Part shown: positions 1,212 through 41,652 of the stretch, piece by piece | Numbering within the stretch: the first letter of the stretch is position 1 | Layout of the letters: the number at the start of each line of letters is the position of its first letter | NCBI RefSeq assembly: GCF_028858725.1 | Contig: NC_084789.1 | Coordinates: 36,897,548 to 36,961,547, forward strand | DNA: 64,000 nucleotides | Source: Colius striatus | Taxonomy: Eukaryota > Chordata > Aves > Coliiformes > Coliidae | Reading direction: 5' to 3' | Position numbers and translations under genes: made by a program | The notes under the pieces: generated by a model | The model's database searches: none | What the model saw: the letters and a program-made list of their open reading frames with translations, nothing else | Told to the model about the DNA's origin: nothing

Positions 1212-3133
1212 GACGGGAGATAGCGCTCATAGGAAAGCAGCTGCAAATGTGACACAGTGCTGCCTGATAGACTACATGGGGACCTACTTAACACTGTAGT
1301 TGGGGTCTGCCTTCCAGCTTTTTTGTAGCTCCCATACGCAGTGGTATAACTTAACCGACAGCATATATTTTTTCAATGGGACCTGAGCAGTACAAGTGAG
1401 TGTTATTTGAGATAGCTCCCACAGGAAAGCAGCTTCAAGGATGGCACAGTGCTGGCTGAGAGACTACATGGGGACCTACTTACTACCGTAGGTGGGGTCT
1501 GCCTTCCTGCTTTCTTGTAGCTCCCATACGCAGTGGAATAACTTAATAGTCTATATATTTTCAACGGGCGTTGAGCAGTCAAAGTAAGTGGGATTGGAGA
1601 TAACTCCCACAGTAAAGCAGGTGCAAATGTGACGCAGTGTTGGCTGATAGAATACATGGGGACCTACTTACTACTGTAGGTGGGGTCTGCATTCCTGGTT
1701 TTTTGTAGCTCCCATACGCAGTGGAATAACTTAAAGGAAAGCATGTATTTTTTAAAGGGATCTGAGCAGTCCAAGTGAGTGGGATTGGAGATAGCTCCCA
1801 AAGGAAAGAAGGTGCAAATGTGACACAGTTCTGGCTGATAGACTACATGGGGACCTACTTACTACTGTAGGGTGTGTCTGCTTTCCTGCTTTCTCATCGC
1901 TCCCATAAACAGTGGTATTATTTCCAATGACAGTCTGTTTTTTTTCAATGGGAGATGAGCAGTCCAAGTGAGTGGGATTGGAGATAGCTCCCACAGGAAA
2001 GCAGCTTCAAAGGTGTCAGTGCCTGCTGAGAGACTACATGGGGACCTACTTACTACTAACACTGCAGGTGGGATCTCTCTTCCTGCTTACTTTTATTTCC
2101 CATATGTAGTCAAAAAAATTATACCGACAGAATCTATTTTTCAATGGAGCTGACGAGGCCAAGAGCGTGGGATTGGAGATAGCTCCCACAGGAAAGCAGC
2201 TTCAAAGGTGTCAGTGCCTGCTGAGAGACTACATGGGGACATACTTACTACTCAAGGTGGGTCTCTTTTCCTGCTTTCTTGTAGCTCCCATACGCAGTGG
2301 TAAAACTTCTATTACCAGCCTGTATTTTTTCAATGGGATCTGAGCAGTCCAAGTGAGTGGGATTGGAGATAGCTCCCACAGGAAAGAAGCTGAAAATGTG
2401 ACACAGTGCTGGCTTAGAGACTACACGGGGACCTACTAACTATTGTAGATGGGGTCTCCCTTCCTGCTTTCTTCAAGCTCTCATACGCAGTGGTATAACT
2501 TCTACCGACAGTGTATTTTTTCAATGGGAGCTGAGCACTCCAAGTGAGTGGGATTGGAGATAGCTCCCACAGGAAAGAAGCTGCAAATGTGACACAGTGC
2601 TGGCTAATAGACTACATGGGGACCTACTTACTGCTGTAGGTGTGCTCTGCCTTCCTGCTTTCTAGTAGCTGCTATACGCAATGGTATAACTTAACAGAAA
2701 GCATGTATTTTTTTCAATGGGAGCTGAGTCCAAGTGAGTGGGACTGCAGATAGATCCCACAGGAAAGCAGCTACATATGTGACACAGTGCTGGCTGAGAG
2801 ATTACATGGGGATCTACTTACTACTGTAGGTCGGTCTGCGTACCTGCTTTTTTGTAGCTCTCATGCTCAGTGATATAACTTATATCGACAGAATGTATTT
2901 TTAAAGGGAGATGACGAGGCCAAGAGGATGGGACTGGTGGTAGCTCCTACAGGAAAGCAGCTGCAAATGTGACACAGTGCTGGCTGATAGACTACTTCGG
3001 GACCTACTTACTATTGTAGGTGGGGTCTGCCTTCCAGCTATTTTGTACCTCCCGTATAACTTAACCGGCAGTCTGTATTTTTTCAATGGTAACTGAGCAG
3101 TCCAAGTGAGTGGGATTGGGGATAGCTCCCAAA
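1212..3133 (+). repeat. Satellite block 1, ~193-bp monomers
   Basis: About ten tandem monomers. Landmarks in each are GATAGCTCCCACAGGAAAGC, GTGACACAGTGCTGGCTGAT, GACTACATGGGGACCTACTT, CTCCCATACGCAGTGGTATA and TTTTTTCAATGGGA. Monomers differ from one another by roughly 10-20 percent and by small indels. Orientation is called plus by this landmark order. I see no gene in it; 60-80-residue open frames recur because the monomer is open in some frames. Confidence 0.95.
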
Positions 3134-3807
3134 TGACGCGAAATTTTCGGCTCTTGGCGTAAAAACATATCTTGAAGCCTGAAACCAGGCTCGAAAACTG
3201 AAATCAGGCTCGAAGCCTGAAAAATGAACCAGACTCGAGGTCTGAAAACCAGGCTCGAAGCCTGAAAGCAGGCTTGAAGCCTGAAAAATGAACCAGACTC
3301 GAAGTCTTAAAAACCCAGGCTCGAAGCCTGAAAATCCAGCTCTAAGCCTCCTTCATGCAGCGATCAACCCAGGGTCCGATTCTCACCTGGGTCAGAAGAA
3401 ATCAGTCCTACTCAATGTGAGTGATAGCAGAAATCTTCTTCTTTATTGAGAGCAAGCTCTAACTTATATACACAGCAACTTCAAAGCTAGCTCAGCAACA
3501 GCAGCTAATAAATTTCACTTTCTTGTTCATCCTACTTGCGGTTTCTGTGATAAGTAAACTCCCTCACATTTTTCCATCTTTTTTTTCCCCAAAGTTGTTT
3601 ACCACTTTTAGCCGAAAACAGTCCGACCTTGAGGGAACAGAAAGCGGTCTGCTGTCTACATGACAGCAACTGCTTTAACCATGGCTCTGACTCTGGTCTT
3701 GATTGTGCATTAAGTTCATATAACTAGAGGTCAGGCTGCCTTGTCCCATTAGGCCTAACATTATACCCTGGGATCCATGTCCATTCTCCCTTAACCATTC
3801 CTCCACA
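3134..3807 (-). repeat. ERV family B 3' LTR
   Basis: 674-bp LTR on the minus strand, beginning TGTGGAG at 3,807 next to a purine-rich tract and ending CGCGTCA at 3,134 against satellite. On the minus strand a TATAAG box lies about 20 bp upstream of AATAAA, giving a very short R, the U3-R layout also seen in alpharetroviruses. The last ~200 bp (U5) is a run of small hairpins described separately. It is related to the solo LTR at 26,339-26,929 and the LTR fragment at 38,217-38,827. Confidence 0.85.
3150..3350 (-). repeat. U5 hairpin array of family B LTR (long version)
   Basis: About eight units of ~17-25 bp. On the plus strand most read CAGGCTCGAAGCCTG or CAGACTCGAAGTCTG, a 6-bp inverted repeat around a three-base loop, spaced by A-rich linkers (GAAAC, AAAAATGAAC). 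Several copies carry mismatches. The array lies downstream of AATAAA, so it belongs to U5. Confidence 0.85.
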
Positions 3808-4232
3808 ATTCCCCCGTTTTGTTTGTGCACAATCAAGACTGAGTCAGTCAGTCGTTGCACTGCCTTCATAATACAACTATATATTATTCTAAACATTACA
3901 AGCAAAAGCAAAATAACCAATATCCATCTTAACCCTTCTTTGATTAACATAATCAACCAAGGTGACAACCCCCTAAAAGCTGATTGAAGCCAATTATCAA
4001 AAGGGTTATAACCCACCGTGATATTCTTAGCGTGAGCCTTTAAATATGCCAAATCTTTGTGAATAGATTCACTATGATCAGAAAGATTAAAACAACACAT
4101 GCCTTCAAAGTCTTGGCATCCGTGCCCTTCCGCTAATAGCAAAAAATCAATAGCTGCACGATCTTGCAATAAGGCATGTCTAAGGCTTTTCTGGTCTGCC
4201 AACAATTTTTTCAATAACATCAGTAGTAACAT
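3675..4232 (-). pseudogene. env: env transmembrane subunit remnant, family B (alpharetrovirus-like)
   Basis: A 185-residue open stretch corresponding to a retroviral transmembrane subunit. Visible are a C-X6-CC motif (at about residue 39) followed by an N-L-S-D-H-S stretch, and a strongly hydrophobic membrane span rich in I/L/V at about residues 90-115. This arrangement is that of avian alpharetroviral TM, and the family B and D copies share it. The frame is separated from the surface-subunit frame at 4,258 by a stop near the subunit border. The C-terminus reads through the polypurine tract and ~130 bp into U3. The element is an old inactive copy. Confidence 0.8.
3808..3825 (-). other. Polypurine tract, family B
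   Basis: On the minus strand AAAACGGGGGAAT lies directly upstream of the LTR's TGTGGAG, the expected plus-strand primer position. The same tract precedes the family C and D 3' LTRs. Confidence 0.8.
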
Positions 4233-6732: not shown

Positions 6733-9700
6733 CAACAGTGCTGGCTGATAGACTATATAGGGGCCTACTTACTACTGTAGGTGGGCTCTGCCTTCCACCT
6801 TTTTTGTTGCTCCCTTACGCAGTGGTATAACTTAACCGACAGCATATATTTTTTCAATAGGAGTGTAGCAGTCCAAGTGACTGGGATTGGAGATACCTCC
6901 CACAGGAAAGCAGGTGCAAATGTGACACAGGGCTGGCTGATAGACTACATGGGGACCTATTTCCTACTATACGCTGGGTCTACTTTCCAGCTTTTTTGTA
7001 GCTCCCATACGCAGTGGTATAACTTAACAGCATATATTTTTTCAATTGGGACCTAAACAGTACAAGTCAACGTTATTGAAGATAGCTCCTAGAGGAAAAT
7101 AGCTGAAAATGTGACACAGTTCTGGCTGATAGACTACATGGGGACCTACTTACTATTGTAGGGGAGGTCTACCTTCCTGCTTTCTTGTAGATCCCATACG
7201 CAGTACTATAACTTAACAGAAAGTATGTTTTTTTTCAACGGGAACTGAGCAGTCTAAGGGAGTGGGATTTGAGATAGCTCCCACAGGAAAGCAGATGGAA
7301 ATGTCACAAACTTCTGACTGATAGACTACCTATGGACCTACTTACTACTGTAGGTGGGGTCTGCCTTCCTGCTTTCTTGTAGCTCCCATACACAGTGTTA
7401 TACATTAACCGACAGAATATAATTTTTCAATGGAAGTTGAGCAGTCCAAGTGTCTGGGATTCGAGATAGCTCCCACAGGAAAGCAGGTGCAAATGTGACA
7501 CAATGCTGACTGATAGACTACATGGGGGCCTACTTACTACTGTAGCTGGGGTCTGCCTTCCTGGTTTCTTATATCTCTCATACGACGTGGTATAACTTCT
7601 ACTGACAGAATGTATTTTTAAAGGGAAATGACTAGGACAAGAGCGTGGGATTAGAGATAGCTCCCACAGGAATGCAGTTGCAAATGTGACACAGTGCTGG
7701 CTGATAGACTACATGGGGATCTACTTACTATTGTAGGTGTGATCTGCCTTCATGCTTTCTTGTAGATTAAATACGCAGTGGTATAACTTAACCGACAGCA
7801 TATATTTTTTCAATGGGAGTTGAGCAGTCCAAGTGATTGGGATTGGAGATAGCCTTCACAGGAACGCAACTGCAAATGTGACACAGTGCTGGCTGATAGA
7901 CTACATGGAGTTATACTTATCACTGTAATTGGGGTCTGCCTTCCTGCTTTCCTGTAGCTCCCATACGCAGTGTTATAACTTAACCGACAGCATATATTTT
8001 TTCAATGGGAGCTGAGCAGTCCAAGTGAGTGGGATTGGAGATAGCTCCCAGAGGAAAGCAGTTGCAAATATGACACAGTGCTGACTGAGAGACTACATGT
8101 GGACCTACTTACTACTGTAGGTTGAGTCTGCCTTACTACTTTCCTGTAGCTCCCATACGCAGTGGTATAACTTAACTGACAGCTGACGAGGTCAAGAGCT
8201 TGGGATTGCAGATAGCGCCCACAGGAAAACAGCTGCTAATGTGACACAGTGCTGGCTGATAGACTACATGGGGACCAACTTTGTACTGTAGATGGGGTCT
8301 GCTTTCCTGCTTTCTTGTAACTCCCATACGAAGTGTTATATCTTCTAACGAAAGTCTGTATTTTTTCAATGGGAGTTGAGCAGTCCAAGTGACTGGGATT
8401 GGAGATAGCATCCACAGGAAAGTCTCTGCAAATGTGACACAGTGCTGGCTGATAGACGAAATGGGGGCCTACTTACTACTGTAGGTGTGGTCTGCCTTCA
8501 TGCTTTCTTGTAGATTCAATACTTAGTGATATAACTTTACCGACAGCATATATATTTTCAATGGGAGTTGAGCAGTCCAAATGATTGGGATTGGAGATAC
8601 CTCCCACAGGAAAGCAGCTGCAAATGTGACACAGTGCTGACTAAGAGACTACATGGGGACCTACTTACTACTGTAGGTGGGGTCTGCCTTCCTGCTTTAT
8701 TGCAGCTCCCATTTACAGTAATATAACTTAAGTGACAGCATAAATTTTTTAAATGGGACCTGAGTAGTACAAGTGAGTGTTATTGAAGATAGCTCCCACA
8801 GGAAAGGAGCTGCAAATGTGACACTGTGCTGGCTGATAGAATACATGCCGATCTACTTACTACTGTAGATGAGGTCTACGTTCCTGCTTACTTTTTTCTC
8901 CCATACACAGTGCTATAACTTAACAGAAAGCATGTATTTTTTAAATGGGATTTGAGTGGTCCAAGCGAGTGGGATTGGAGATACTGCTCACAGGAAAGAA
9001 GGTGCAAATGTGACACAGTGCTGGCTGATAGACAACATGGGGGCCTACCTCCAACTGTAGTTATGGTCTGCCTTCATGCTTTCTTGTAGATTCAATACGC
9101 AGTGGTATAACTTAGCCGAAAGCATATATTTTTTTCAATGGGAGTTGAGCATTCCAAGTGATTGGGATTGGAGATAGCTCCCACGGGTAAGCAGCTGCAA
9201 ATGTGACACGGTGCTGGCTGATAGCCTACATGGGGGCCTACTTACTACTGTAGGTAGGGTGAGACTTCCTGCTTTCTTGTAGCTCCCATACGCAGGGTTG
9301 TAACTTAACCGAAAGCATATATTTTTTCAATGGGATTTGAGTAGTCCAAGTGAGTGGGATTGGAGATAGCGTCCTGTGGAAAACAGGTGAAAATTTGACA
9401 CAGTGCTGGCTGATAGACGAAATGGTGGCCTACTTAGTACTGTAGGTGTGGTCTGCCTTCATGCTTTCTTCTAGATTCAATACGCAGTGGTATAACTTAA
9501 CCAACAGCATATATTTTTTTCAATGGGATTTGAGCAGTCCAAGTGAGTGCGATTGGAGATAGCTCCCACAGGAAAGCAGTTGCAAATGTGACACAGTGCT
9601 GACTGAGAGACTACATGGGGACCTACTTAGTACTGTAGGTGGAGTCTCTCTTCCTGCTTTCTTGTTTCTCCCATACGCAGTGGTAGAACTTCTACCGACA

Positions 9701-10190
9701 ATCTGTATTTTTTCAATGGGAGTTGAGCAGTTCAAGTGAGTGGGATTGGAGATAGCACCCACAGGAAAGCAGCTGCAAATTTGACACAGTGCTGGCTGAT
9801 AGACTACATGTGGACCTACTTACTACTATAGGTAGGGTCTGACTTCCTGCTTTCTTGCAGCTCCCATACGCAGTGTTATAACTTAACCGACAGCATATAT
9901 TTTTTCAATGGGAGTTGAGCAGTCCAAGTGATTGGGATTGGAGACAGTGCCCACAGGAAAGCAGCTGTAAATGTGACACAGTGCTTGCTGATATACTACA
10001 TGGGGACCTACTTATTACTGTTGGTGGGGTCTGCCTTCCTGGTTTCTTGTACCTCCCATACGCAGTGATATAAATTCTACCGACAGCCTGTATTTTTTCA
10101 ATGGGAGTTGAGCAGTCCAAGTAATTGGGATTGGAGATAGCTCCCATAGGAAAGCAGCTGCAAATGTGACACAGTGCTGACTGATAGACT
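6733..10190 (+). repeat. Satellite block 2, ~193-bp monomers
   Basis: About eighteen plus-oriented monomers with the same landmarks as block 1. Spacings of the GATAG landmark at 9,558, 9,751, 9,943 and 10,136 give 192-193 bp. One monomer near 8,180 has lost part of its A/T-rich segment and carries the alternative end (GACGAGGCCAAGAGC type) seen sporadically in other blocks. No gene seen. Confidence 0.95.
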
Positions 10191-11633: not shown

Positions 11634-13970
11634 GTATAACTTAATCGACAGCATATATTTTTTCAATTGGAGCTGAGCAATCCAAGTGAGTGTTATTGGA
11701 GATAGCTCCCGCAGGAAAGCTTGTACAAATGTGACACAGTGCTGGCTGATAGACTACATGGGGACCTACTTCTACTGTTGGTGAGATCTGCCTTCCTGCT
11801 TTCTTAAAGCTACCATACACAGTGGTATAACTTCTACCGAAAGAATGTATTTTTAAAAGGAGCTGACGAGGACAAGAGTGTGGGATTGGAGAAAGCTGCC
11901 ACAGGAAAACACCTGCAAATGTGACACAGTGCTGGCTGATAGAATATGAGGACCAAATAACTACTGTGGGATTGGAGAAAGCTGCCACAGGAAAACACCT
12001 GCAAATGTGACACAGTGCTGGCTGATAGAATATGGGGACCAAATAACTACTGTAGGTTGGGTCTGCCTTCCTGCTTTTTTGTAGCTCCCATACGCAGTGG
12101 TATAACTTAAGCGATAGCATTTTTTTTTTCAATGAGATCTCAGCAGTACAAGTGAGAGTTATTGGAGATAGCTCCAACAGGAAAGCAGCTGCAAATGTGA
12201 CACAGTGCTGGCTAATAGACTACATGGTGACCTACTTACTACTGTAGGTGGGGTCTGCCTTCCTGCTTTCTTGTAGTTCCCATACACAGTGCTATAACTT
12301 TACAAAAAGCATGTATTTTTTCAATGGGAGTTGAACAGTCCAAGTGAGTGGGATTGGAGATAGCTCCCACAGGAAATCAGCAGCAAATGTGACACAGTGC
12401 TGGCTGATAGAGTACATGTGGACCTACTTACTAGTGTAAATGGGGACTGTCTTCCTGCTTTCTTGTAACTCCCATATGCATTGCTACAACTTATACCGAC
12501 AGACTGTATTTTTTCCAAGGGAGATGACGAGGCCAAGAGCGTCGGATTGGAGATAGCGCCCACAGGAAAGCAGATGCAAATGTGATACAGTGCTTGCTGA
12601 TAGACTGCATTGGGACCTACTTAACACTGTCGTTGGCGCCTGCCTTCCTGCTTCCTTGTACCTCCCACAGGCAGTGGTAAAACTTCTACTGCCAGCATGT
12701 ATTTTTTCAATGGGGGTTGAGCAGTCCAAGTGAGTGGGATTGGAGATAACTTCCACAGGAAAGCAGCTGCAAATCTGACACAGTGCTGGCTGATAAACTA
12801 CATGGGGACCTACATACTACTTTAGGTGGGGTCTGCCTCCCTGCTTTCTTGTAGCTCCCATACGCAGTGGTATAACTTCTATCGACAGAATGTATTTTTT
12901 CAATGGGATTTGAGCATTCCAAGTGAGTGGATTGGAAAAAGCTACTATAGGAATGCAGCTGCAAATGTGACACAGTGCTGGCTGACAGACTACATTGGGG
13001 CCTACTTACTACTTTAGGTGGGATCTGCCTTCCACCTTTTTTAGCTCCCATACGCACTGGTATAATTTAACCGACAGCATAATTTTTTTCAATGGGAGTT
13101 GAGAAATCCAAGTGCATGAGATTGGAGATAGCTCCCACAGGAAAGCAGCTCCAAATGTGACACAATGCTGGCTGAAAGACTACATGGGGACCAACCTAGT
13201 ACTGTAGATGGGGTCTGCCTTTCTACTTTTTGTAGCTCCCATATGCAGTGGTATAACTTCTACCGACACTATATTTTTTAAATGGCAGTTGAGCACTCCA
13301 AGTGAGTTGGATTGGAGATAGCTCAACTGCTGTAGTAAGTAGGTCAGTCTGTATATTTAAAAGGAAGCTGACAATGCCAAGAGCTTGGGATTGGAGATAC
13401 CTCCCACAGGAAAGCACCTGAAAATGTGACATAGTGCTTACTGAGAGACTACATTGGGACCTACTTACTACTGTCGGTGGGTTCTTCCTTCCAGCTTTCT
13501 TGTAGATACTATATGCAGTACGATAACTTAACGGAAAACATGTATTTTTTCAATGGGAGCTGAGCAATTCAAGTGAGTGGGATTGGAGACAGCTTTCAAA
13601 GGAATGCAGCTGCAAATGTGACACAGTGCAGGCTGATAGAGTACATGGGGACCTACTTACTACTGTAGGTGGGGTCTGCCTTCCTGCTTTCTTGGAGCTC
13701 CCATACGCACTGTTATAACTTCTACTGACAGTCTGTATTTTTTCAATGGTCGTTGAGAAGTTCAAGTGACTGGAATTGCAGATAGGTCCCACATGAAAGC
13801 AGCTGCAAATGTAACACAGTGCTGGCTGATAGACTATATTGGACCTACTTACTACTTTTGGATGGGGTCTGCCTTCCTGGTTTTTTGTTGCTCCCATACA
13901 CAGTGGTATAACTTAAGCGACAGCATATATATTTTCAATGGGACATGAGCAGTCCAAGTGAGTGGGATTG
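11634..13970 (+). repeat. Satellite block 3, ~193-bp monomers
   Basis: About twelve plus-oriented monomers, including a shortened one near 13,250-13,350. The block runs straight into a TEKT3 intron at ~13,971 with no transposon end at the junction. No gene seen. Confidence 0.95.
11881..12052 (+). repeat. 86-bp local tandem duplication inside the satellite
   Basis: The segment beginning TGGGATTGGAGAAAGCTGCC at 11,881 recurs at 11,967, nearly identical to the end of the copy (one visible difference, TATGAGG against TATGGGG). It is a sub-monomer duplication and must be recent. Confidence 0.9.
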
Positions 13971-14057
13971 GTCTCTTCCCGGGCCAGGTCTGCGTGGAGG
14001 GTGGTCCGTGTCCCAGGGAGGTGAGGGCGTCACACACACAGGGAGGGGTTGGGCTAC

Positions 14058-14860: not shown

Positions 14861-17779
<2,919 letters not shown>

Positions 17780-18550: not shown

Positions 18551-20236
<1,686 letters not shown>

Positions 20237-20571
20237 TGTAGTGGGTCTGGGATGGTAGTGATTTTCCACAGCAGCTCCTGCAGTGCTGTGCTTACTGTTG
20301 ATATCAATATTATGACTACCACTTGCACAGCATCAGGGCTGTCACTCCAGCATTCCTTCCCCCACCTTCAACAATAGCTGTGGGTGGGCATGATCTTGGG
20401 AGGGACTATGGCCAGGACAGCTGACCCAGGCTGACCAAGGAGATATTCCATACCATATGATGTCAGCTCAGTAATATAAACTGGGGTAGAGGAGCAGGAA
20501 GGGGAGGCGAGATTCATTTCTGGCCTTCCAAAAGCAACCGCTACGCGTACTGAAGCCCTGCTTCTCGGGAG
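20237..20571 (+). repeat. ERV-L 5' LTR, 3'-truncated
   Basis: Begins TGTAGTGGGTCTGGGATGGT. It matches the first 335 bp of the right LTR and stops at CTCGGGAG, where it joins mid-pol sequence. The rest of the LTR, the primer site, gag, protease and the start of RT are missing. Confidence 0.9.
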
Positions 20572-21389
20572 ACATGTTAGAGCTCCAGTATGAACTGGAG
20601 TCAAAAGCAGCCAAGTGGTATGCTACGATTGACATCGCTAATGCATTTTTCTCAATTCCATTGGCAGCAGAGTGCTGGCCACAATTTGCCTTCACATGGA
20701 GAGGTGTCCAATATACCTGGAATCGATTGCCCCAGGGCTGGAAACATAGTCCTACTATTTGTCATAGTCTAATCCAAAGTGTGCTGGAAATGGATGAAGC
20801 CCCTGAACATTTACAGTACATTGATGACATAATTGTATGGGGCAACAAGGCAGAAGAAGTGTTTGAGAAAGGGAAAAGAATAATACAGATTCTCCTAAAA
20901 GCTGGTTTTGCTGTAAAAAGAAACAAAGTAAAGGGACCTGCACAAGAGATACAGTTTTTGGGCATAAAATGGCAAGATCGACGTCGGCATGTGCCTGTGG
21001 ATGTTGTGAACAAAATAGCGACTATGTCTCAACCAACTAATAAGAAAGAAACAAAAGCTTTCCTTGGCCTTGTGGGATTCTGGAGGATGCATATCCCAGG
21101 TTATAGTCAGCTTGTGAGCCCTCTCTTTAGAGTAACCAGAAAGAAGAACTGTTTTGAGTGGGGCCTTGTGCAACAACAAGCTTTTCAACAAATTAAACAG
21201 GAAATAGCTCGTGCAGTCGCCCTTGGGCCCATCCGTACAGGATGGGCAGAATATCCTATACACTGCTGCTGGAGAGCATGGTCTCACCTTGAGCCTCTGG
21301 CAGGAAACATCTGGAGAAACCTGAGGTCAACCATTAGGATTTTGGAGCCAAGGATATCAAGGATCGGAAGCCCACTACACCCCAACTGA
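20572..21389 (+). pseudogene. pol: ERV-L reverse transcriptase remnant
   Basis: Open plus-strand frame beginning inside RT. Visible are a palm segment with A-T-I-D-I-A-N-A-F-F, L-P-Q-G-W-K-H-S-P-T-I-C-H, the catalytic Y-I-D-D at 20,817-20,828, and an F-L-G-I-K-W thumb-region segment. Y-I-D-D and P-Q-G-W are typical of class III (ERV-L) RT. The frame drifts out near 21,245 and stops at 21,389. Confidence 0.85.
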
Positions 21390-21643
21390 AAAAGAAATAC
21401 TAGCAGCATATGAGGGACTTCGAGCTGCTTCAGAAGTCATTGGCACAGAAGCTCATCTCCTCTTGGCACCACGTCTGCCTGTGTTACACTGAATGTTCAA
21501 AGGGAAAACCCCTTCTATACATCATGCAACCAGCGCTACATGGAGTAAGTGGATGGCGTTGATTACACAACAATCTCGGCTATGGAAATCTAATCGTCCA
21601 GGAATCCTGGAAGAAATCATGGACTGGCAGAGATTTTTGAGCA
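21390..21643 (+). pseudogene. pol: ERV-L RT connection region, stops and frameshifts
   Basis: Continuation of pol between RT and RNase H; the sequence is recognisable as pol in changing frames but contains several stops. Confidence 0.6.
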
Positions 21644-23049
21644 TTGCCTGAGGAAGTAGCTGGTGCCCAAGAGGCACCACCATATAATGAACTATCAGAA
21701 GATGAGAGGCATTATGCTTTGTTTACTGATGGATCCTGCCGCGTGGGAGGAAATCATCGTAAGCGGAAAGCTGCTGTGTGGAGTCCCACACAACGAGTTG
21801 TTGAGGCCACTGAAGGACAAGGTGAGTCGAGTCAGTTTGCTGAAGTGAAAGCCATCCAACTAGCTCTAAAGATTGCAGAACGAGAGAAGTGGTCAGTACT
21901 CTATCTTTATACTGACTCCCGGATGGTGGCTAATGCTCTATGGGGATGGCTACAGCAATGGAAGAAGACCAACTGGCAGCGCAAGGGTAAACCCATCTGG
22001 GCTGCTGCATTATGGCAAGACATTGCTGCTCGGGTGGAAAATATGACTCTGAACATACGTCATGTAGATGCTCACGTGCCAAAAAGCCGTGCCAATGAAG
22101 AACAGTGGAACAACCAACAGGTAGATAAAGCTGCCAAAACTGAAGTAGCTCAGATAGACCTAGACTGGGAGCGTAAAGATGAGCTATTTATAGCTCGATG
22201 GGCCCATGAAACATCAGGACATCTGGGAAGAGATGCAACATATAGATGGGCTCGTGATCGAGGGGTGGACTTGACCATGGAAGCCATTACACAGGTCACC
22301 CACGAATGTGAAACGTGTGCCGCAATCAAGCAAGCCACACGAATCAAGTCTCCCTGGAACGGAGGCCGATGGTTGGGTTTTCAATATGGTGAGGCCTGGC
22401 AAATTGACTATGTTGGACCGCTACCACAAACACATCAAGGCAAGCGTTCTATACTCACCATGGTGGAAGCAACTACCGGTTGGTTGGAAACATGCCCTGT
22501 AAACCATGTCACTGCCCGAAATACTGTCTTGGGTCTTGAAAGGCAAGTTTTGTGGCGACACGGCACTCCAGAAAGAATTGAATCAGATAATGGAACTCAT
22601 TTTCGAAATAATCTCATAAACTCCTGGGCAAAGAAACATGGCATTGAGTGGATATACCACATCCCCTATCACCCACAAGCCTCTAGAAAGATTGAGAGAT
22701 ATAACGGATTGCTAAAGACCATGTTGAGAGCACTGGGCAATGGGGCATGGAAGCAGTGGGATAAAGATTTAGCAGAAGTCACTTGACTGGTTAACAGCAG
22801 AGGTTCAACTAACAGTCCTGGTCCTGCCCAAACAAAACCACTACATACTGTGGGAGGAGATAAGGTCCCTGTAGTGCACCCAGGGAAATGGCTGGGGAAG
22901 GCAGTATGGGTTGCACCTCCCATGGGAAAGGGCAAACCCATTCGTGGGATTGTCTTTGCTCAAGGGCCTGGGTGTACTTGGTGGGTGATGAGAAAGGATG
23001 GGGAAACTCGATGTGTACCTCAAGGAGACTTAACCTTGGGGGAAAAATA
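21644..23049 (+). pseudogene. pol: ERV-L RNase H and integrase remnant
   Basis: One frame from 21,644 to 23,049 broken by a single TGA at 22,784-22,786. RNase H residues appear as T-D-G-S, the E of F-A-E-V, T-D-S and a late D of Q-V-D-K. Integrase shows an H-H...C-E-T-C zinc region, then Q-I-D-Y-V-G-P, S-D-N-G-T and an I-E-R-Y-N segment with the final E, and a basic C-terminal domain ending in G-D-L-T-L-G-E-K. It is a well-preserved class III pol 3' half. Confidence 0.88.
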
Positions 23050-23404
23050 ACCTGTTATATGAGTTATCTGTTGTAGATGAACTTTGCAAGAAAAACCGGA
23101 CAAGTGGACAAACCAAGCCGGTGCTGGTGCCCAACACTGAACATACTGTTTCCCCTGGCCTGGATATCCATCTTGATGGATGAGACAGAAGTTATGGCCT
23201 GCTCCAGTGAACATCTATAGAGAATGAAAGATATAAGAATGTTGTTTGTTTGTTTGATGCAAGATGCAAGAGGGAATACAAGAATGATGTATGTCTGTTG
23301 AAGAGTGGGGGTACTGGTTAATGAGAGTATATAAGAATGTATATGGGTTGTTAAGATGGTATGTCTGAGCATGACATAAATGGTATGGAATAAGGGGTGG
23401 AGAC
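23050..23404 (+). other. ERV-L region between pol and 3' LTR, no env
   Basis: About 355 bases with no env-like frame. ERV-L elements normally lack env, so this is expected. A G-rich GGGGTGGAGAC just before the LTR is the likely polypurine tract. Confidence 0.65.
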
Positions 23405-23960
23405 TGTAGAGGGTCTGGGATGGTAGTGATTTTCCACAGCAGCTCCTGCAGTGCTGTGCTTACTGTTGATATCAATATTATGACTACCGCTCGCACAGCA
23501 TCAGGGCTGTCCCTCCAGCATTCCTTCCCCCACCTTCACCAATAGCTGTGGGTGGGCATGATCTTGGGAGGGACTATGGCCAGGACAGCTGACCCAGGCT
23601 GACCAAGGAGGTATTCCATACCATATGACGTCAGTTCAGTAATATAAACTGGGGTAGAGGAGCAGGAAGGGGAGGTGAGATTCATTTCTGGCCTTCCAAA
23701 AGCAACCGCTACGCGTACTGAAGCCCTGCTTCTCGGGAGGTGGCCGGACATCACTGCTGATGGGAAATAGAGAGTAACAGTTTTATCTGCTTTTGCTTTG
23801 CTTCCCGCGCTCGCGGCTTTACTGCTTCTTTATTAAACTGCTTTTATCTCAACCAACGAGACTCCCATCTTATTTCCTCCCCTTCCCTGGCTTGCTGAGG
23901 AGGTGGAGGATAAAGCTGTGTCGTAGGTACATGGCATCAAACCAGGCTCAAACTACCACA
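23405..23960 (+). repeat. ERV-L 3' LTR, complete
   Basis: 556 bp, TGTAGAGGGTCTGGG...CTACCACA. A TATAAA-like ATATAAACTGGGG (near 23,643) and a TTTATTAAACTG late signal are present. Followed by the CTCCC target duplication and satellite. Confidence 0.9.
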
Positions 23961-26338
23961 CTCCCACAGGAAAGCAGCTGCAAATGTGACACAGTGCTGG
24001 CTGATAGAGTACATGGGGACCTACTTACTACTGTAGATGGGGTCTGTCTTCCAGCTTTTTTGTAGCTCCCATACGCAGTGGTATAACTTCTACCGACAGT
24101 CTGTATTTTTTCAATGGGAGTTGAGCAGTCCAAGTGAGTGGGATTTGAGACAGCTCCCAAAGGAAAGCAGCTGCAAATGTGACACTGCTGGCTGATAGAC
24201 TACATGGGGACCTACTTACTACTGTAGGTGGGGTCTGCCTTCCAGCTTTTCTTTACCTCCCATTCAGTGGTATAAATTAAGCGACAGCATATATTTTTTG
24301 TCAATGGGAGTTGAACAGTCCAAGTGAGTGGAATTGGAGATAGCTCCCACAGGAAAGCAGTTTCAAATGTGATACAGTGCTGCCTGAAAGACTACAGGGG
24401 AGCCTACTTAACACTGTAGTTGGGGTCTGCCTTCCTGTTTTCTTGTACCTCCCATACGCAGTGGTATAATTTCGATTGATAGAATGTATTTTTAAAGGGA
24501 GCTGGCGAGGCCAAGAGCGTGGGACTGGAGATAGCTCCCACAGGAAAGCAGCTGCTAATGTGACACAGTGCTGGCTGATAGACTAAATGGAGGTCTACTT
24601 ACTAATTTAGGTGGGGTCTTCCTTCCAGCTTTTTTGTCGGTCCCATACGCACTGGTATAACTTAAGCGACAGCACATATTTTCTCAATGGGACCTGAGCA
24701 GTACGAGTGAGTGGGATTGGAGATAGCTTTCACAGGAAAGCCGCTTCAAATTTGACACACTGCTGGCTGATAGACTACATGGGGACCTACTTACTACTTT
24801 AGGTGGGATCTGTCTTCCTGCTTTCTTGTAGCTCCCATACGCAGTGGTGTAACTTAACCGACAGCATATATTTTTTCAATGGGCGTTGAGCAGTGCATGT
24901 GACTGGGATTGGAGTTAGCGTTCACAGGAAAGGAGCTGCAAACGTGACACAGTGCTGACTGATAGACTACATGGGGATCTAGTTACTACTTTAGGTGCGG
25001 TCTGCCTTCTTGCTTTCTTTTAGCTCCCATACGCAGTGGTATAACTTAACCGATAGCATATATTTTTTCAATGGGACCTGAGCAGTACAAGTGACTGGGA
25101 TTGGAGATAACGCTCACATGAAAGCAGGTGCAAATGTGACACGGTGCATGCTGATAGACTACATGGGGACGTACTTACTACTGTAGGTGAGGTCTGCCTT
25201 CCTTCTTTCTTGTAGCTCGCATACGCGGTGCTATAACTTAACGGAAAAATTGTGTTTTTTCAATGAGAAATGTGCAGTCCACGTGTGTGCGATTGGATAT
25301 AGCTCCCACAGGAAAGCAGCTGAAAATGTCACACAGTGCTGACTGATAGACTACATGGGGACCTACTTACTACTGTAGGTGGGGTCTGCCTTCCTGCTTT
25401 CTTATAGCTCCCATACGCAGTGGTATATCTTAACGGAAAGCATGTATTTTTTCAGTTGGATCTGAGCAGTACGAGTGTTATTGGAGATAGCTCTCACAGG
25501 AAAGCAGGTTCAAATGTGATACAGTGCTGGCTGATAGACTACATGGGGACCTACTTACTACTGTATGTGGGGTCTGCCTTCCTGCTTTCTTGTAGCTCCT
25601 ATAGGATGTGGTATAACTTCTACCTACAGCATATATTTTTTGAATGGAAACTTTGCAGTCCAAGTGAGTGAGATTGGAGATAGCTCCCAAAGGAAAGCAT
25701 GTGAAAATGTGACACAGTGCTGGATGATAGACTATGTGGGGACCTCCTTAACACTGTAGTTGGGGTCTGCCTTCTTGCTTTCTTGTATCTCCCATACGCA
25801 GTGGTGTAACTTAAACGACAGCATATATTTTTTCAATGGGACCTGAGCAGTAAGAGTGAGTGGGATTGGAGATAGCTTTCACAGGAAAGCAGCTTCAAAT
25901 TTGACACACTGCTGGCTGATAGACTACATGGGGACCTACTTACTACTTTAGGTGGGGTCTGTCTTCCTGCTTTCTTGTAGCTCCCATACGCAGTGGTGTA
26001 ACTTAACCGACAGCATATATTTTTTCAATGGGCGTTGAGCAGTGCATGTGACTGGAATTGGAGTTAGCGCTCACAGGAAAGGAGCTGCAAAGGTGACACA
26101 GTGCTGACTGATAGACTACATGGGGATCTAGTTACTACTTTAGGTGCGGTCTGCCTTCTTGCTTTCTTTTAGCTCCCATACGCAGTGGTATATCTTAACG
26201 GAAAGCATGTATTTTTTCAATGGGAGCTGAGCAGTTCAAGTGAGTGGGATTAGAGATAGCTCCCAAAAGAAAGCAGGTAGAAATGTGACACAGTGCTAGC
26301 TTTTAGACTACATGGGGACCTCCTTACTACTGTAGGTG
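23961..26338 (+). repeat. Satellite block 5, ~193-bp monomers with six-monomer repeat
   Basis: About twelve plus-oriented monomers. Two stretches of ~335 bp (24,711-25,045 and 25,860-26,193) are nearly identical, sharing rare variants such as GGGCGTTGAGCAGTGCATG and GATCTAGTTACTACTTTAGG, offset by 1,149 bp, i.e. six monomers. No gene seen. Confidence 0.95.
26333..26338. other. Target-site duplication TAGGTG, left copy
   Basis: TAGGTG at 26,333-26,338 and again at 26,930-26,935 bracket the family B solo LTR. Six bp is typical of class II retroviral integration. Confidence 0.9.
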
Positions 26339-26929
26339 TGTGGAGAAAAAAATGAGGGAGCATGGACATGGATCCCGGGATATAACAATAGGCCTGTTGG
26401 GGCAAGGCAGACTGAGCTCTAGTTATATGAGTTTAATGCACAATGAGGATCAGAGTCAGAGCCATGGTTAAAGCAGTTGCTGTCATGTAGACAGCAGGTC
26501 GCTTTCTGTTCCCTCAAGGTCACACTGTTTTCGGCTAAAAGTGGTAAATAACTTTGGGGAAAAACAAGATGGGAAAATGTGAGGGAGCTTGCTTATGGCA
26601 GAAATCGAAATAGGATGAACAAGAAAATGTAATCTATTAGCTGCTGTTGCTGAGGTAGCTTTGAAGCTGCTGTGTGTATAAGTTAGAGCCTGCTCTCAAT
26701 AAAGAAGAAGATTTCTGCTATCACTGACGTTGAGTAGGACAGATTTCTTCCCACCCAGCTGAGAACTGGACCCTCGGTTGATCGCCGCATGAAATAGGCT
26801 TAGAGCTGGATTTTCAGGCTTCGAGCCTGGGTTTTTCAGACTTCGAGTCTGGTTCATTTTTCAGGCTTTGAGCCTGGTTTTCAGACTTCGAGTCTGTTTT
26901 TTAGGCTAAGAGCCGAAAACTTCGCGGCA
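26339..26929 (+). repeat. Solo LTR of ERV family B
   Basis: 591 bp, TGTGGAG...GCGGCA, with a perfect 6-bp target duplication on each side, so it is a complete solo LTR formed by LTR-LTR recombination. TATAAG at about 26,677 and AATAAA at 26,698-26,703 lie only ~20 bp apart, an alpharetrovirus-like promoter/poly(A) layout with a short R. U5 holds a hairpin array. Confidence 0.9.
26815..26914 (+). repeat. U5 hairpin array of family B solo LTR
   Basis: In transcript sense: CAGGCTTCGAGCCTG (26,815-26,829), CAGACTTCGAGTCTG (26,837-26,851), CAGGCTTTGAGCCTG (26,862-26,876), CAGACTTCGAGTCTG (26,882-26,896), and a smaller GGCTAAGAGCC (26,904-26,914). Each of the four larger ones is a 6-bp stem with a three-base loop; both stem partners change together between the two types. 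Confidence 0.92.
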
Positions 26930-26935
26930 TAGGTG

Positions 26936-27402
26936 GGCTGTGCCTTCCTGCGTTATGGTAGCTCCCATACGCAGTGCAATAACTTAAGGGAAAGCATGTA
27001 TTTTTTCAATGGGAATTGAGCAGTCCAAGAGACTGGGATTGGAGATAGCTCCCAAAGGAAAGCACGTGCAAATGTGACACAGTGCTGGATGATAGACTGT
27101 ATGGGGACCTCCTTAACACTGTAGTTGGGGTCTACCTTCTTGCTTTCTTGTAGCTCCCATATGCAGTACTAAAACTTAAAAGAGAGTTTTTATTTTTTCA
27201 TTGCTAGTTGAATGGTACAAATGAGTGTTATTGGAGATAGCTTTCACAGGAAAGCAGGTGCAAATGTGACACAGTGCTGGCTGATAGACTACATTGGGAC
27301 CGACTTACTACTGTAGGTGGGATTTGCCTTCCTGCTTTCTTGTTGCTCCCATAGGCAGTGGTATAACTTCTATCGACAGTCTGTAGTGTTTGAATTGGGA
27401 CT
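26936..27402 (+). repeat. Satellite block 6, ~193-bp monomers
   Basis: About two and a half plus-oriented monomers between the solo LTR and the family A minus-strand element. Confidence 0.9.
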
Positions 27403-30223: not shown

Positions 30224-30409
30224 ATCTGAGTCACGGCACCAAATTGTTATAAGTTGCTGTGAAAAAGTTCACAGGCCAATTTAAATGACTCACAGGACAA
30301 ATTCATTAAGCAAGCGGCAAATAAGCAAAGCAGTGCTGGGCGGCCGCTAGACCCTGCTCCACCAACGGCGCGCAACCCCTCCCCCCCCCCCCCGTATCAG
30401 AGTCCTTTT
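30224..30409 (-). repeat. ERV family A primer site and truncated 5' LTR
   Basis: Primer site ATCTGAGTCACGGCACCA (plus-strand view, 30,224-30,241; one mismatch to the tRNA-His type), then LTR from 30,245. The LTR is cut just past its poly(C) tract at ~30,409, where satellite begins. Confidence 0.8.
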
Positions 30410-33400
30410 CCCACAGAAAAGCAGCTGCAAATGTGACACAGTGCTGGGTGATAGACTACATGGGGACCTACTTACTAATCTAGGTGGGATCTGCCTTCCT
30501 TCTTTTTTTTTACTCCCATAAGCAGTGGTATAACCTCTACCGACAGTCTGTATTTTTTCAATGGGTGTTGAGCATTCCAAGTGAGTGGGATTGGACATAG
30601 CTCCCAAAGGAAAGCAGGTGCAACTGTGACGCAGTGCTGACTGGTAGACTATATGGGGACCTACATACTACTGTAGGTGGGGACTCCCTTCAAGCTTTTT
30701 TGTAGCTCCCATACGCACTGGTAGAATTTAAGCGACAGCATATATTTTTTCAATGAGACCTGAGCAGTACAAGTGAGTGGGATTGGAGATAGCTACCACA
30801 GGAAGCAGGTGCAAATGTGACACAGTGCTGCCTGATAGAGTACATGAGGACCTACTTATCACTGTCGTTGAGGTGTGCCTTCCTGGTTTCTTTTAGCTCC
30901 ATTACGCAGTGGTATAACTTCTACCGACAGAATGTATTTTTAAATGGAGCTGACGAGGCTAAGAGCGTGGGATTGGATATAGCTCCCACAGGAAAGCATG
31001 TGCAAAGGTGACACACTGTTGGCTGAGAGACTACATGTGGATTTACTTACTACTGTAGGTGGGGTCTCCCTTCGAGCTTTCTTGTAGCTCCCATAGGCAG
31101 TGGTATAACTTCTACCGCCAGCATGTTTTTTTCAATGGGAGCTGAGCAGTCCAAGTGAGTGGGATTGGAGATAGCTTTCACAGGAAAGAAGCTGCAAATG
31201 TGACACAGTGCTGACTGATAGACTACATTGGGGCCTACCTATTACTGTAGGTGGGGTCTGCCTTCCAGCCTTTTTGTAGCTCCCATTCGCAGTGGTATAA
31301 CTCAAGCAACAGCATATATTTTTTCAATTGGACCAGAGCAGTCCCAATGACGGGGATTGGAGATAGTGCCTACAAGAAAAGAACAGCAGATGTGAAACAG
31401 TGCTGGCTGACAGACTACATGGGGACCTATTTAACACTGTAGTTTGGATCTGCCTTTCTGTTTTCCTGTACCTCCCATACGGAGTGGTATAACTTCTACG
31501 AACAGCCTGTATTTTTTCAAAGGAAACTTAGCAGGCCAAGTGCGTGGGATTGGACATAACTCCCACAGGAAAGCATTTACAAATGTGACACAGTGCAAGC
31601 TGATAGACTACAAAGGGACCTACGTACCATTGTAGGTGGGGTCTTCCTTCCTTCTTTCTTGTAGCTCCCATACGCAGTGGTATAACTTCTACGTACACTC
31701 TGTATTTTCAATGGGACGTGAGCAGGACAAGAGCGTGAGATTCGAGATAGCGCGCACAGGAAAACAGCTGAAAAGGTTGCACAGTGCAAGCTTATAGACT
31801 CCAATGTGACCTACGTACCACTGTAGGTGGGGTCTGCGTACCTGCTTTCTTGTACTGCCCAGATACAGTGGCGTAAGTTTTATCGGCAGCATGTATTTTT
31901 TCAAAGGAAGCTGAGCAGTCCAAGTGCATGGGATTGTAGATAACTCTCACAGGAAAATAGCTGCAAGTATGACACAGTGCTGGCTGATAGACTACATGGG
32001 GGCCTACTTACTACTGTAGATGGGGTCTGCCTTCCAACTTTTTTGTAGCTCCCATACGCATTGGTATAATTTAAGTGACAGCATATATTTTTTCAATGGG
32101 AGTTGAGCAGTCCAAGTGAGTGAGATTGGAGATAGCTCCCACAGGAAAGCAGGTGCAAATGTGACACAGTGCTGGCTGATAGACTACATGGGTACCTACT
32201 TAATACTGTTGGTGGTGTCTGCCTTCCTGCTGTCTTGTAGCTTCCATACACAGTGGTATAACTTCTACCTCCAGCATGTATTTTTAAAGGGAGTTGACGA
32301 GGCCAAGGACGTGGTATTGGAGATAGCTCCCACAGGAAAGCAGCTGAAAATGTGTCACGGTGCTGACTGATAGAATACATGGGGACCTACTTACTACTAT
32401 AGGTGGGGTCTGCCTTCCTCTTTACTTGTACCTCCCATACGCACTGGTATAACTTAAGCGACAGCATATATTTTTTCATTTGGACCTGAGCATTACAAGT
32501 GAGAGGGTTTGTAGATAGCTCCCACTGGAAAGCAGCTTTAAATGTGACACAGTGCTTGCTGATAGACTACATGGGGGCCTACTTACTACTGTAGGTGGAG
32601 TCTGTCGTCCAGCTTTTTTTTTTTTGTAGGTCTGATACACAGTGCTATAACTTAACGGAAAGCACGTATTTTTTCAATGGGAGCTGAGCGGTCCAAGTGT
32701 TTAGGATTGGAGATAGTTCCCAAAGGAAAACAGGTGCAAATGGTACACAGTTCTGGCTGATAGACTACATGGGGACCTACTTCTGTAGGTGGGATCTGCC
32801 TTCCTACTTTCTTGTAGATACCATACGCAGTGGTATAATTTCTACCTACAGTCTGTGTTTTTTCAATGGGAGTTGAGCAGTCCAAGTGAGTGGAACTGGA
32901 GATAGCTTTCACAGGAAAGCAGGTGCAAATGTGACACAGTGCTGGCTGATAAACTACATGGGGACCTACTTACTACCGAAGTTGGGTTCTGCCTTCTGCT
33001 TTCTTGTAGCTCCCATACGCAGTTGTATAACTTAACAGAAACCGTGTTTTTTTTCAATAGGAACTGAGCAGTCGAAGTGAGTGGATTGGAGTTTACTCCC
33101 ACAGGAAAGCAGCTGAAAATGTGACACAGTGCTTGCTGATAGACTACATGGGAATCTACCTACTACTGTAGGTGGGGTCTGGCTTCCTGCTTTCTTGTAG
33201 CTCCCATACACGGTAGTATAACTTAACCAAGAGCATATATTTTTTCATGGGGACCTACTTACTACTGTAGGTTGTGTCTGCCTTCCTGTTTTCTTGTACC
33301 TCCCATATGCAGTGGTATAACTTCTACCAACAGACTGTATTTTTAAAGGGAGCAGACAAGGCCAAGAGTGTGGGATTGGAGATAGCTCCCAGAGGAAAGC

Positions 33401-33637
33401 ATTTTCAAAGATGACAGAATGCTGGCTGATAGACTACCTGGGGACCTACTTAGTACTGTAGGTGGGATCTCCCTTCCTGCTTTCTTTTAGCACCCATAGG
33501 CAGTGGTATAACTTCTACCGCCTGCATGTATTTTTTCACTGGGCGCTGAGCAGTTCAAGTGAGTGGGATTGGAGATAGCTCCCACAGGAAAGCAGCTGCA
33601 AATGTGACACAGTACTGGCTTATAGAGTACATGGGGG
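30410..33637 (+). repeat. Satellite block 7, ~193-bp monomers
   Basis: About seventeen plus-oriented monomers lying between two oppositely oriented family A elements. A shortened monomer near 33,240 joins TTTTTTCAT to GGGGACCTAC. The last monomer has the variant ACAGTACTGGCT instead of ACAGTGCTGGCT. No gene seen. Confidence 0.95.
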
Positions 33638-38216: not shown

Positions 38217-38827
38217 TGACGTTTTCGGCTCTTGGCCTGAAAAAACCAGACTCGAAGTCTGCAAACCAGGCTCGAAGCCTGAAACCAGGCTCGAAGCCTG
38301 AAAAACCCAGGCTCGAAGCCTGAAACCAGGCTCGAAGCCTGAAAAATGAACCAGACTCTAAGTCTGAAAAACCCAGGCTCGAAGTCTGAAAAAACCCAGG
38401 CTCGAAGCCCGAAAAACCAGCTCCAAGTCTACTTCATGCGGCAATCAACCCAGGGTCCGATTCTCAGCTGGGTGGGAAGAAATCAGTCCTACTCAATGTG
38501 AGTGATAGCAGAAATCTTCTTCTTTATTGAGAGCAGGCTCTAACTTATATACACAGCAGCTTCAAAGCTAGCTCAGCAACAGCAGCTAATAGATTACATT
38601 CTTATGTTCATCCTACTTGCGGTTTTTGAGATAAGCAAGCTCCCTCACATTTTCCCATCTTGTTTTTCTTTGAAGTTGTTTTCCACCTTGAGCTATTAGC
38701 TCATTATCTGAGAACAGTCCGACCCTGAAGGAGGAGAAAGCGGCCTGCTGTCTATGTTGACTACGTGACAGCAACTGCTTTAACCATGGCTCTGACTCTG
38801 GTCTTGATTGTGCATTAAATTCATAAT
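38217..38827 (-). repeat. Family B LTR fragment inside the family A provirus
   Basis: Minus-strand family B LTR: U5 end TGACG at 38,217, hairpin array, AATAAA, and most of U3. It lacks the outer ~85 bp of U3 and abuts the family A 3' LTR at 38,830. No target duplication is seen, so a deletion followed or accompanied its arrival. Confidence 0.85.
38229..38430 (-). repeat. U5 hairpin array of family B LTR fragment
   Basis: About eight units, mostly CAGGCTCGAAGCCTG and CAGACTCGAAGTCTG (plus-strand view) separated by A-rich linkers. One unit, CAGGCTCGAAGTCTG, mixes the two types and so contains a stem mismatch. Confidence 0.88.
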
Positions 38828-39338: not shown

Positions 39339-41652
39339 GGGGTCCACTTACTACTGTAGGTGGGGTCTGCCTTCGTCCTTTTTTGTAGATCTCATACGCA
39401 GTGGTATAACTTAACCGACAGCATACATTTTTTCAATGGGAGCTGAGCAGTACAAGTGAGTGGGATTGGAGATAGCGCCCACAAGAAAGCAGCTTCAAAT
39501 GTGAAACAGTGCTGGCTGATAGACTACATGGGGACCTACTTACTACTGTAGGTGGGGTCTGCTTTCCTGCTTTCTTGTAGCTCCTATACGCAGTGGTATA
39601 ACTTACACCGACATAATGTATTTTTAGAGGGAGCTGACGAGGCCAAGAGCGTGGGATTGTAGATAAGTCTTACAGGAAAGCAGCTGAAAATGTGACACAG
39701 TCTGCCTGATAGACTACATGGGGACCTACTTACTACTGTAGGTAGGGTCTGCCTTCCTGCTTTCTTGTAGCTCCCATACACAGTGGTATAACTTAACCGA
39801 CAGAATATATTTTTTCAATGGGAGTTTAGCAGTCCAAGTGACTGGGATTGGAGATAGGGCCCACAGGAAAGCAGGTGAAAATGTGACAGAGTGCTGGATG
39901 ATAGGCTACATGTGGGTCTTCTTACTGCTGTACGTGGGGACTGCCTTCCAGCTTTTTTTTAGCTCCCATACGCAGTGGTATAACTTCTACCGATAGTCTG
40001 TATTTTTTCAAAGGGAGCTGAGCAGTCCAAGTGAGTGGGATTGGAGATAGCTTTCACAGGAAAGCAGGTGTAAATGTGACACAGTGCTGGCCGATAGAGT
40101 ACTTAGTACTGTAGGTGGGGTCTGCCTTCCAGCTTTTTTTTAGCTCCCATACGCAGTGGTATAACTTAAGTGACAGCACATTTTTTCAATGGGACATGAG
40201 CAGTACCAGTGAGTGTTATTGGAGATAGCTCCCACAGAAAAGCAGCTTCAAAGGTGACACAGTTCTGGCTGAGAGACTACATGTGGACCTTCTTACTACC
40301 TAGGTGGGGTCTCCCTTCCTGCTTTCCTGTAGCTCCCATAGGCAGTGGTATAACTTCTACCGACAGTCTGTATTTTTTAATTGGAGATGAGCAGTTCAAG
40401 TGACTGGGATTGGAGATAGCGGCCACAGACAACCAACCACCTGCAAATGTGAAACAATTCTGGCTGATAGACTACATGGCGACCTCCTTACTACTGTAGG
40501 TGGGGTCTGCCTTTCAGCTTTTTTGTAGCTCCCATATGCAGTGTTATAACTTAACAGACAGCAAATATTTTTTCAATGCGACCTGAGCAGTCCAAGTGAT
40601 TAGAGATAGCTTTCACAGGAAAATAGATGCAAAAGTGACACAGTGCTGGCTGATAGACTACATGGCGACTCGTTTACTACTGTAGATGGGGTCTGCCTAC
40701 GTTCTTTCTTATAGCTCCTATACGCAGTGGCATAACTTCTGCCGACAGTCTGTATTTTTAAAAACAGCTGACGAGGCCAAGAGCATGGGATTGGAGATAG
40801 CGCCCACAGGAAAGCAGATTCAAATGTGACACAGTGCTGGCTAATAGACTACATGGGGACCTACTTACTACTGTACGTGGGGTCTGCCTTCCTGCTTTCT
40901 TGTAGCTCCCATACGCATTGGTATAACTTCTACTGACAGAATGTATTTTTTCAATGGGAACTGAGAAGTCCAAATGAGTGGGATTGGAGATAGCTCCCAC
41001 AGGAAAGCAGGTGGAAATGTTACACAGTGCTGGCTGATACACTATGTAGGGACTTACTACTGTTGGTGGGATCTGCCTTCCTGTTTTCTTGCAGCTCCTA
41101 TACGTAGTGTTAAAACTTAACCGACAGCATATATTTTTTCATTGGGAGCCGAAAAGTCCAAGTGAGTGGGATTGGATATAGCTCCCACAGGAAAGCAACT
41201 GCAAATGTGACACAGTGATGGCTGATAGACTACATGGGGACGTACTAACTACTGCAGGTGGGATCTGCTTTCCTGCTTTCTTGTAGCTCCTATACGCAGT
41301 GGTATAACTTCTACTGACAGTCTGTATTTTTTCAATGGGGGTTGAGCAGTCCAAGTGACTGGAATTGGAGATAGCGTCCACAGGAAAGCAGCTTCAGATG
41401 TTACACAGTGCTGGCTGATAGACTACATGGGGACCTACTTATTACTGTAGGTGGGGTCTGCTTTCCTGCTTTCTTGTAGCTCCTATACGCAGTGGTATAA
41501 CTTCTACTGACAGTCTGTATTTTTTCAATGGGGGTTGAGCAGTCCAAGTGACTGGAATTGGAGATAGCGTCCACAGGAAAGCAGCTTCAGATGTTACACA
41601 GTGCTGGCTGATAGACTACATGGGGACCTACTTATTACTGTAGGTGGGGATT
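39339..41652 (+). repeat. Satellite block 8, ~193-bp monomers
   Basis: About twelve plus-oriented monomers. The last two (about 41,264-41,456 and 41,457-41,649) are virtually identical at an offset of exactly 193 bp, a recent single-monomer duplication. No gene seen. Confidence 0.95.

Follow-up and report, generated by a model that had tools for sequence, protein, structure and literature searches.

How did a row of small palindromes, with matching changes in both arms, come to lie in an old retroviral long terminal repeat (LTR), and does it mark an RNA structure kept by selection? The question is raised by a 64,000-nucleotide stretch of DNA (the window) from the speckled mousebird, Colius striatus (order Coliiformes), in which three LTRs of one family, B1, B2 and B3, each carry such an array. 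These three LTRs from one window are the sample for the results below. On the sense strand, the repeated unit has 15 bases, a 6-bp stem around a three-base loop, and comes in a G type (CAGGCT-TCG-AGCCTG) and an A type (CAGACT-TCG-AGTCTG). Our analysis indicates that the array is probably a palindromic minisatellite that developed from a hairpin in the U5 region of an old mousebird retroviral LTR, and that the matched stem change looks like one event multiplied by duplication, not proof of a selected RNA structure. The LTRs and their arrays are located as follows.

3134..3568, minus strand: LTR B1, 435 bp, with 8 units; its 3′ end adjoins a satellite.
3167..3330, minus strand: B1 array, G-A-G-G-A-G and then, closest to the LTR 3′ end, two damaged G units; perfect stems in 4 of 8 units.
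26578..26929, plus strand: LTR B2, 352 bp, with a 4-unit array; TATAAG at 26677, AATAAA at 26698 and the 3′ end CGCGGCA, placed from the three-LTR alignment and motif positions.
26795..26809, plus strand: degenerate unit ahead of the B2 array, TAGGCTTAGAGCTGG.
26815..26896, plus strand: B2 array, with units at 26815 (G), 26837 (A), 26862 (G, loop TTG) and 26882 (A); 4 of 4 stems perfect.
26904..26914, plus strand: terminal hairpin after the B2 array, GGCT-AAG-AGCC, with a 4-bp stem, related to the array units.
38217..38649, minus strand: LTR B3, 433 bp, with 8 units; its 3′ flank is not satellite, which makes the 3′ end less certain.
38247..38411, minus strand: B3 array, G-mixed-A-G-G-G-G-A; 6 of 8 stems perfect, with the mixed unit at 38374 and an A2-to-G change at 38397 (G opposite T).

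The arrays lie where the original prediction had placed them and are built as it described, from 6-bp inverted repeats with three-base loops, 4 to 8 to an LTR. We counted 20 units (8 in B1, 4 in B2 and 8 in B3), a number that omits the terminal hairpin and the degenerate unit found ahead of every array (3 of 3). Most stems are intact, as had been claimed, with 14 of the 20 perfect; 16 units have the loop UCG, and the other 4 differ from it by one base (UCA, UUG or UAG). Both stem types are real; their proposed alternation is strict only in B2 (G-A-G-A). The pair that separates the types is G-C in 11 units, A-T in 6 and neither in 3 (T-C, G-A, A-C). The unit near 38,380 that had been singled out as breaking the pairing is the mixed unit of B3 (38374-38388), in which A stands opposite C on the sense strand. 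Across the window, 34 perfect inverted repeats with a 6-bp stem and a three-base loop were found, 14 inside the arrays and 20 outside. In 30 simulated windows (first-order Markov), the mean was 19.1 and the maximum was 2 per 100 bases, so the clustering in the arrays is not due to chance. Among the tandem periods that Tandem Repeats Finder (TRF) listed are one of 64 bp in B1 and one of 41 bp in B3. With head-to-tail copies whose number differs between the LTRs (8, 4 and 8), as expected, and a unit that is itself an inverted repeat, the array has the make-up of a palindromic minisatellite, which the original prediction had named as its alternative and which we favor.

The position of the array in the LTR is consistent among the three copies. 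TATAAG and AATAAA start 21 bases apart in all three, the first B2 unit follows AATAAA by 111 bases, units lie roughly 110 to 275 bases past that signal, and the array ends 30-33 bases before the CA end of the LTR. The order of TATA box, polyadenylation signal, array and CA end is also the same in 3 of 3 LTRs. Because the array comes after AATAAA and before the CA end, we place it, in agreement with the original prediction, in U5 and the predicted 5′ RNA leader. In Rous sarcoma virus (RSV) and mouse mammary tumor virus (MMTV), AATAAA lies within U3. Given a layout like that of these two viruses, the sequence motifs suggest that the array should be near the 5′ end of the viral RNA and not near its 3′ end. 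The R region has 21 bp in RSV and 11 bp in MMTV, according to the part of the literature cited here (PMC3601003).

Evidence on the origin of the paired changes comes from the stems themselves. Changes were scored against each unit's own type, with the mixed unit, which is equidistant from both types, scored as G. Among 120 base pairs, 110 are unchanged and 10 are changed on one side (7 unpaired, 3 G-T), with none changed on both sides; beyond the G/A switch, 0 of 10 changed pairs are compensated. The G-C/A-T switch between the stem types is genuine, and it amounts to a single compensated position. Doubly changed pairs occur at 1 of 6 stem positions, a value reached by 444 of 500 shuffles, in a covariation set of 11 distinct rows drawn from the 20 units, in which the row of the last B1 unit is offset by one base with a gap. 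Compensation at several independent stem positions is thus not seen in these three LTRs: it is found at one of six, seemingly as one event. Likewise, the three further pair types are reached by 496 of 500 shuffles. Pairing in the set is 90.8% (reached by 14 of 500), and sliding the partner by -1 leaves the covariation score equal while pairing falls to 38.5% and the doubly changed cells to 0. The swap of a G-C for an A-T pair, as originally noted, therefore stands at one position and the idea of repeated compensation does not; the excess of compensatory over single stem changes, the absence of which the original prediction had named as counting against itself, is absent from the three LTRs.

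The surroundings of the A-type units point to how the change was multiplied. The linker gttcattttt follows 4 of 6 A units and 0 of 14 other units (Fisher p 0.003, which on related copies measures linkage, not independent events). All A units inside the arrays (two in B1, one in B2 and one in B3) precede this linker, and the A units at the array ends of B2 and B3 precede a T-run instead. Because the linker is shared, the A-type units look like copies of one change spread by tandem duplication. The array also shows no sign of slower decay. Stem sites are changed at 10 of 240 and loop sites at 4 of 60 (p 0.49), and 3 of the 4 loop changes are of the CpG type, fitting CpG decay. Ahead of the array, private substitutions number 12 in B1, 12 in B2 and 7 in B3, each of 232 columns, plus one three-state column. 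Stem change at 6 of 228 sites, or 10 of 240 with the broken last B1 unit included, compares with 31 of 696 in the pre-array LTR (p 0.33 and 1.0, respectively), a rough comparison because a rate of changes private among three LTRs differs in kind from a rate of deviation from the unit type. No slower decay of the stems than of the LTR ahead of the array was detected.

Several results weigh against this interpretation. Four doubly changed cells, all at the G/A position, are reached by only 7 of 500 shuffles, and so is the covariation score of 0.158, which stems from the same position alone. The 14 perfect stems persist although the private divergence of the LTRs is 3-5%, and the four central G units of B3 carry no change at all. 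The arrays also fold with lower energy than dinucleotide shuffles (z -4.83 for B2, -6.58 for B3 and -5.37 for B1; 0 of 200 shuffles in each case), an observation that we did not count as evidence of function because a palindromic repeat yields a low energy whatever its history. Finally, the three LTRs sampled are all 3′ LTRs, which leaves room for selection in the live virus.

A sequence of plausible events would account for the minisatellite. A short hairpin native to U5 would have been duplicated in tandem, and related degenerate pieces still flank the array. The easiest route to duplication would be stalling and template switching by reverse transcriptase during synthesis across the hairpin-forming leader. 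The second stem type would have arisen once, when one arm was copied from the other in a quasipalindrome template switch that compensated the change in a single step, and would then have spread along with its linker. No separate function is needed to explain the observed pattern. Quasipalindrome template switching is described, in the part of the source relied on here, as a mutational process in Escherichia coli, yeast, phage T4 and human TP53, where it makes an imperfect inverted repeat more perfect through paired changes in one step (PMC7202029); it is described for these other systems, whereas its action in the mousebird LTR and by its reverse transcriptase is our inference. Tandem repeats in retroviral LTRs offer a second parallel, being short direct repeats whose copy number varies within one LTR family. 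The cases covered in the cited portion of PMC3601003 lie in U3 and can act in transcription, unlike the mousebird repeats, which lie in U5 and have inverted units.

Folding predictions bear on what the array RNA might do. The array folds largely through pairing between units, and limiting pairs to a 16-base span costs 38 kcal/mol in B1, 26 in B2 and 42 in B3. According to these models, the RNA would fold strongly but not as a fixed row of small hairpins, because pairs can form between units as well as within them. Free folding of a rebuilt four-unit array is better than local folding by 8.5 kcal/mol when the types alternate and by 17.6 kcal/mol when all units are of one type, whichever it is. 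The smaller gap predicted for alternation is the best hint of an array shaped by selection; the four G units in a row in B3 weigh against selected alternation.

A rival reading, which we consider unlikely, is a selected multivalent dimer-linkage or packaging element, in which each self-complementary leader unit would open and pair with its counterpart on a second genomic RNA, the array would multiply the contacts and the two types would reduce mispairing between unlike neighbors, in agreement with the narrowed gap predicted for alternating types. A more specific form of it, in which the virus would have amplified a U5 stem-loop as a multivalent dimer-linkage element and paired stem variation would let a unit match its own type on the partner genome and not its neighbor, strikes us as more doubtful still. 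Modeling gives unit homodimers of -22.6 (G) and -18.4 (A) kcal/mol versus -7.1 and -5.0 kcal/mol for the single hairpins, with G-A pairs at only -12.7 kcal/mol, and a dimer of the B2 array that gains 8.4 kcal/mol over two monomers. The self-complementarity expected of a dimer site in the 5′ leader is present in so far as the homodimers are predicted and the leader position follows from TATAAG and AATAAA. A precedent exists in human T-cell leukemia virus type 1 (HTLV-1), whose dimer initiation site, a palindromic stem-loop of 14 nt, falls within 32 nt immediately upstream of the primer site (PMC5874298, here and below as far as the cited part of that article goes). The likeness lies in the short palindromic stem-loop, which in the mousebird element would sit upstream of a primer site, the array ending 30-33 bases before the LTR end; the HTLV-1 site is one 14-nt copy with a single-base apical loop, whereas the mousebird unit has 15 nt and a three-base loop and is present 4 to 8 times, and its dimerization is a prediction. 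Deletion of the HTLV-1 region lowered infectivity by only 20-25% (PMC5874298), so that even the precedent is not essential. Avian sarcoma-leukosis virus, a bird retrovirus, likewise has a palindrome in a hairpin of its leader, the L3 dimer hairpin, and the env adjoining B1 is bird-retrovirus-like. The L3 palindrome, however, lies in the apical loop (PMC5874298), and the mousebird loop is UCG or a one-base variant, the palindrome there being the stem, in U5. In murine leukemia virus, palindromes through which the two RNAs make contact are the preferred places for template switching (PMC5874298). Against dimer linkage also stand the lack of repeated compensation in the stems, the four consecutive G units of B3, which undo the alternation, and the search of the window, which turned up no 5′ LTR with a primer site.

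A row of single RNA hairpins, maintained for translation or RNA stability, as the original prediction had speculated, or for protein binding, is very unlikely. The folding energy of an intact unit on its own and the position of the array within the predicted leader would suit such a row, but free folding favors pairing between units, loop and stem decay alike, and no Rfam family was found in the window at gathering thresholds. It is similarly improbable that the units are palindromic binding sites in the DNA, recognized past the promoter by a dimeric transcription factor. The unit is palindromic and repeated, it lies roughly 110 to 275 bases past AATAAA, and symmetric half-site changes would covary too, but the spacing between units varies and their decay is not detectably slower than that of the rest of the LTR.

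The array belongs to an LTR family for which B1, B2 and B3 are the only matches when the LTR is compared with the window by BLAST. All three are 3′ LTRs because the end of an env region lies upstream of each (3 of 3). In B1, this assignment also follows from an adjoining open reading frame (ORF):

3678..4232, minus strand: env transmembrane-like ORF adjoining B1, with a Pfam PF00429 match and bird env-like relatives.

The best named relatives of this ORF are bird env-like proteins, including one of Falco naumanni with 58% identity at 81% query cover. Farther up on the strand of B1 is a pol ORF that scores highest, among solved integrases, against 5cz2, 3jca and 7usf, which we take to be betaretrovirus integrases; integrase chains of RSV or avian sarcoma virus score below these. 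From their order and strand, the pol ORF and B1 are likely parts of one provirus. A satellite with a unit of 192 bp starts right after ...CGCGTCA in B1 and ...CGCGGCA in B2, at differing points of the satellite unit, and these junctions of two separate insertions fix the 3′ end of the LTR. The 24-base flanks of B1 and B2 have 54 and 36 matches in the window, own site included (at most 4 mismatches), and that of B3 has 1, itself. We infer the 5′ end of the LTR from a purine-rich run followed by TG (TGTGAGGGAG), seen in 3 of 3 copies. In U5, B2 (26696-26860, minus strand) and B1 (3285-3449, plus strand) share an antisense frame of 54 codons with near-identical translations; the B3 frame differs, and the likeness is probably a matter of chance in related DNA.

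We also looked for the array and its neighbors elsewhere. No further array or match to the B2 LTR appeared at 41 loci comprising 199,000 sampled bases of the genome, a very small part of it, so this says little; one locus (L004) had two lone unit-like matches with two mismatches allowed, not an array. Neither viral contigs nor prokaryote genomes contained an exact G unit followed after 3-15 bases by a unit of either type, which is what one expects of bird DNA. A search for env relatives in viral contigs gave 26 candidate stretches with 0 confirmed, and residues 1-75 of the translated B3 frame, used as a protein query, gave 15 candidates with none at E ≤10. Among the matches listed in the literature, the titles and abstract openings describe no U5 hairpin array; the subscription literature is mostly outside that set, which makes this weak evidence of novelty.

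The rest of the window is dominated by the satellite and by other ERV (endogenous retrovirus) sequences, as follows.

approx. 1216-3131, 6735-10190, 11695-13971, 18692-20236, 23961-26338, 26930-27359, 30409-33514, 39339-41649, 58916-59852 and 60824-62729, both orientations: satellite of ~192 bp, split by ERV pieces.
14861-15799, minus strand: tektin-3-like ORF.
20570-23960, ~3.4 kb: stretch 95% identical to part of locus L017 (contig C36) of the same genome.
43731-45758, plus strand: open gag frame of 676 codons with Gag_p24 domains and zinc knuckles.

The satellite also fills sampled stretches of the small contigs C56 and C41, which were picked because a 100-base probe of each resembled it; both 5,500-base stretches are fully covered by window matches, those listed for locus L041 being satellite. 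Its length is near that of the centromere repeats of goose (192 bp) and duck (190 bp), as given in the cited part of PMC6435179, a likeness in length. Judging by its ORFs, the stretch at 20570-23960 looks like another, younger ERV family. The tektin-3-like ORF matches a Colius striatus protein, located on a contig of 42,315,177 bases, with 100% identity at 87% query cover, which supports the mousebird as host, and the search returned five more Colius tektin-3-like proteins at 74-76% identity, four of them on that contig; many such proteins of Leptosomus discolor are on a contig or contigs of 19.45 Mb. The 42-Mb contig may be the W chromosome, judging by its place among the ordered contigs and by how rich the window is in ERV and satellite sequence, and the Colius matches suggest an amplified tektin-3-like family there. 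The W chromosomes of birds collect ERVs, as stated in the part of PMC8310711 drawn on here. A sample of 6,000 bases at 20.0 Mb of the 42-Mb contig had no match to the window.

Paired stem changes are usually taken as the sign of a working RNA. In the mousebird LTRs, one change and its tandem duplication would account for them, which calls for caution when covariation tests are applied to repeats. Should the array instead link genomic RNAs, it would act as a modular dimer site, and its strength might change with the number of units.
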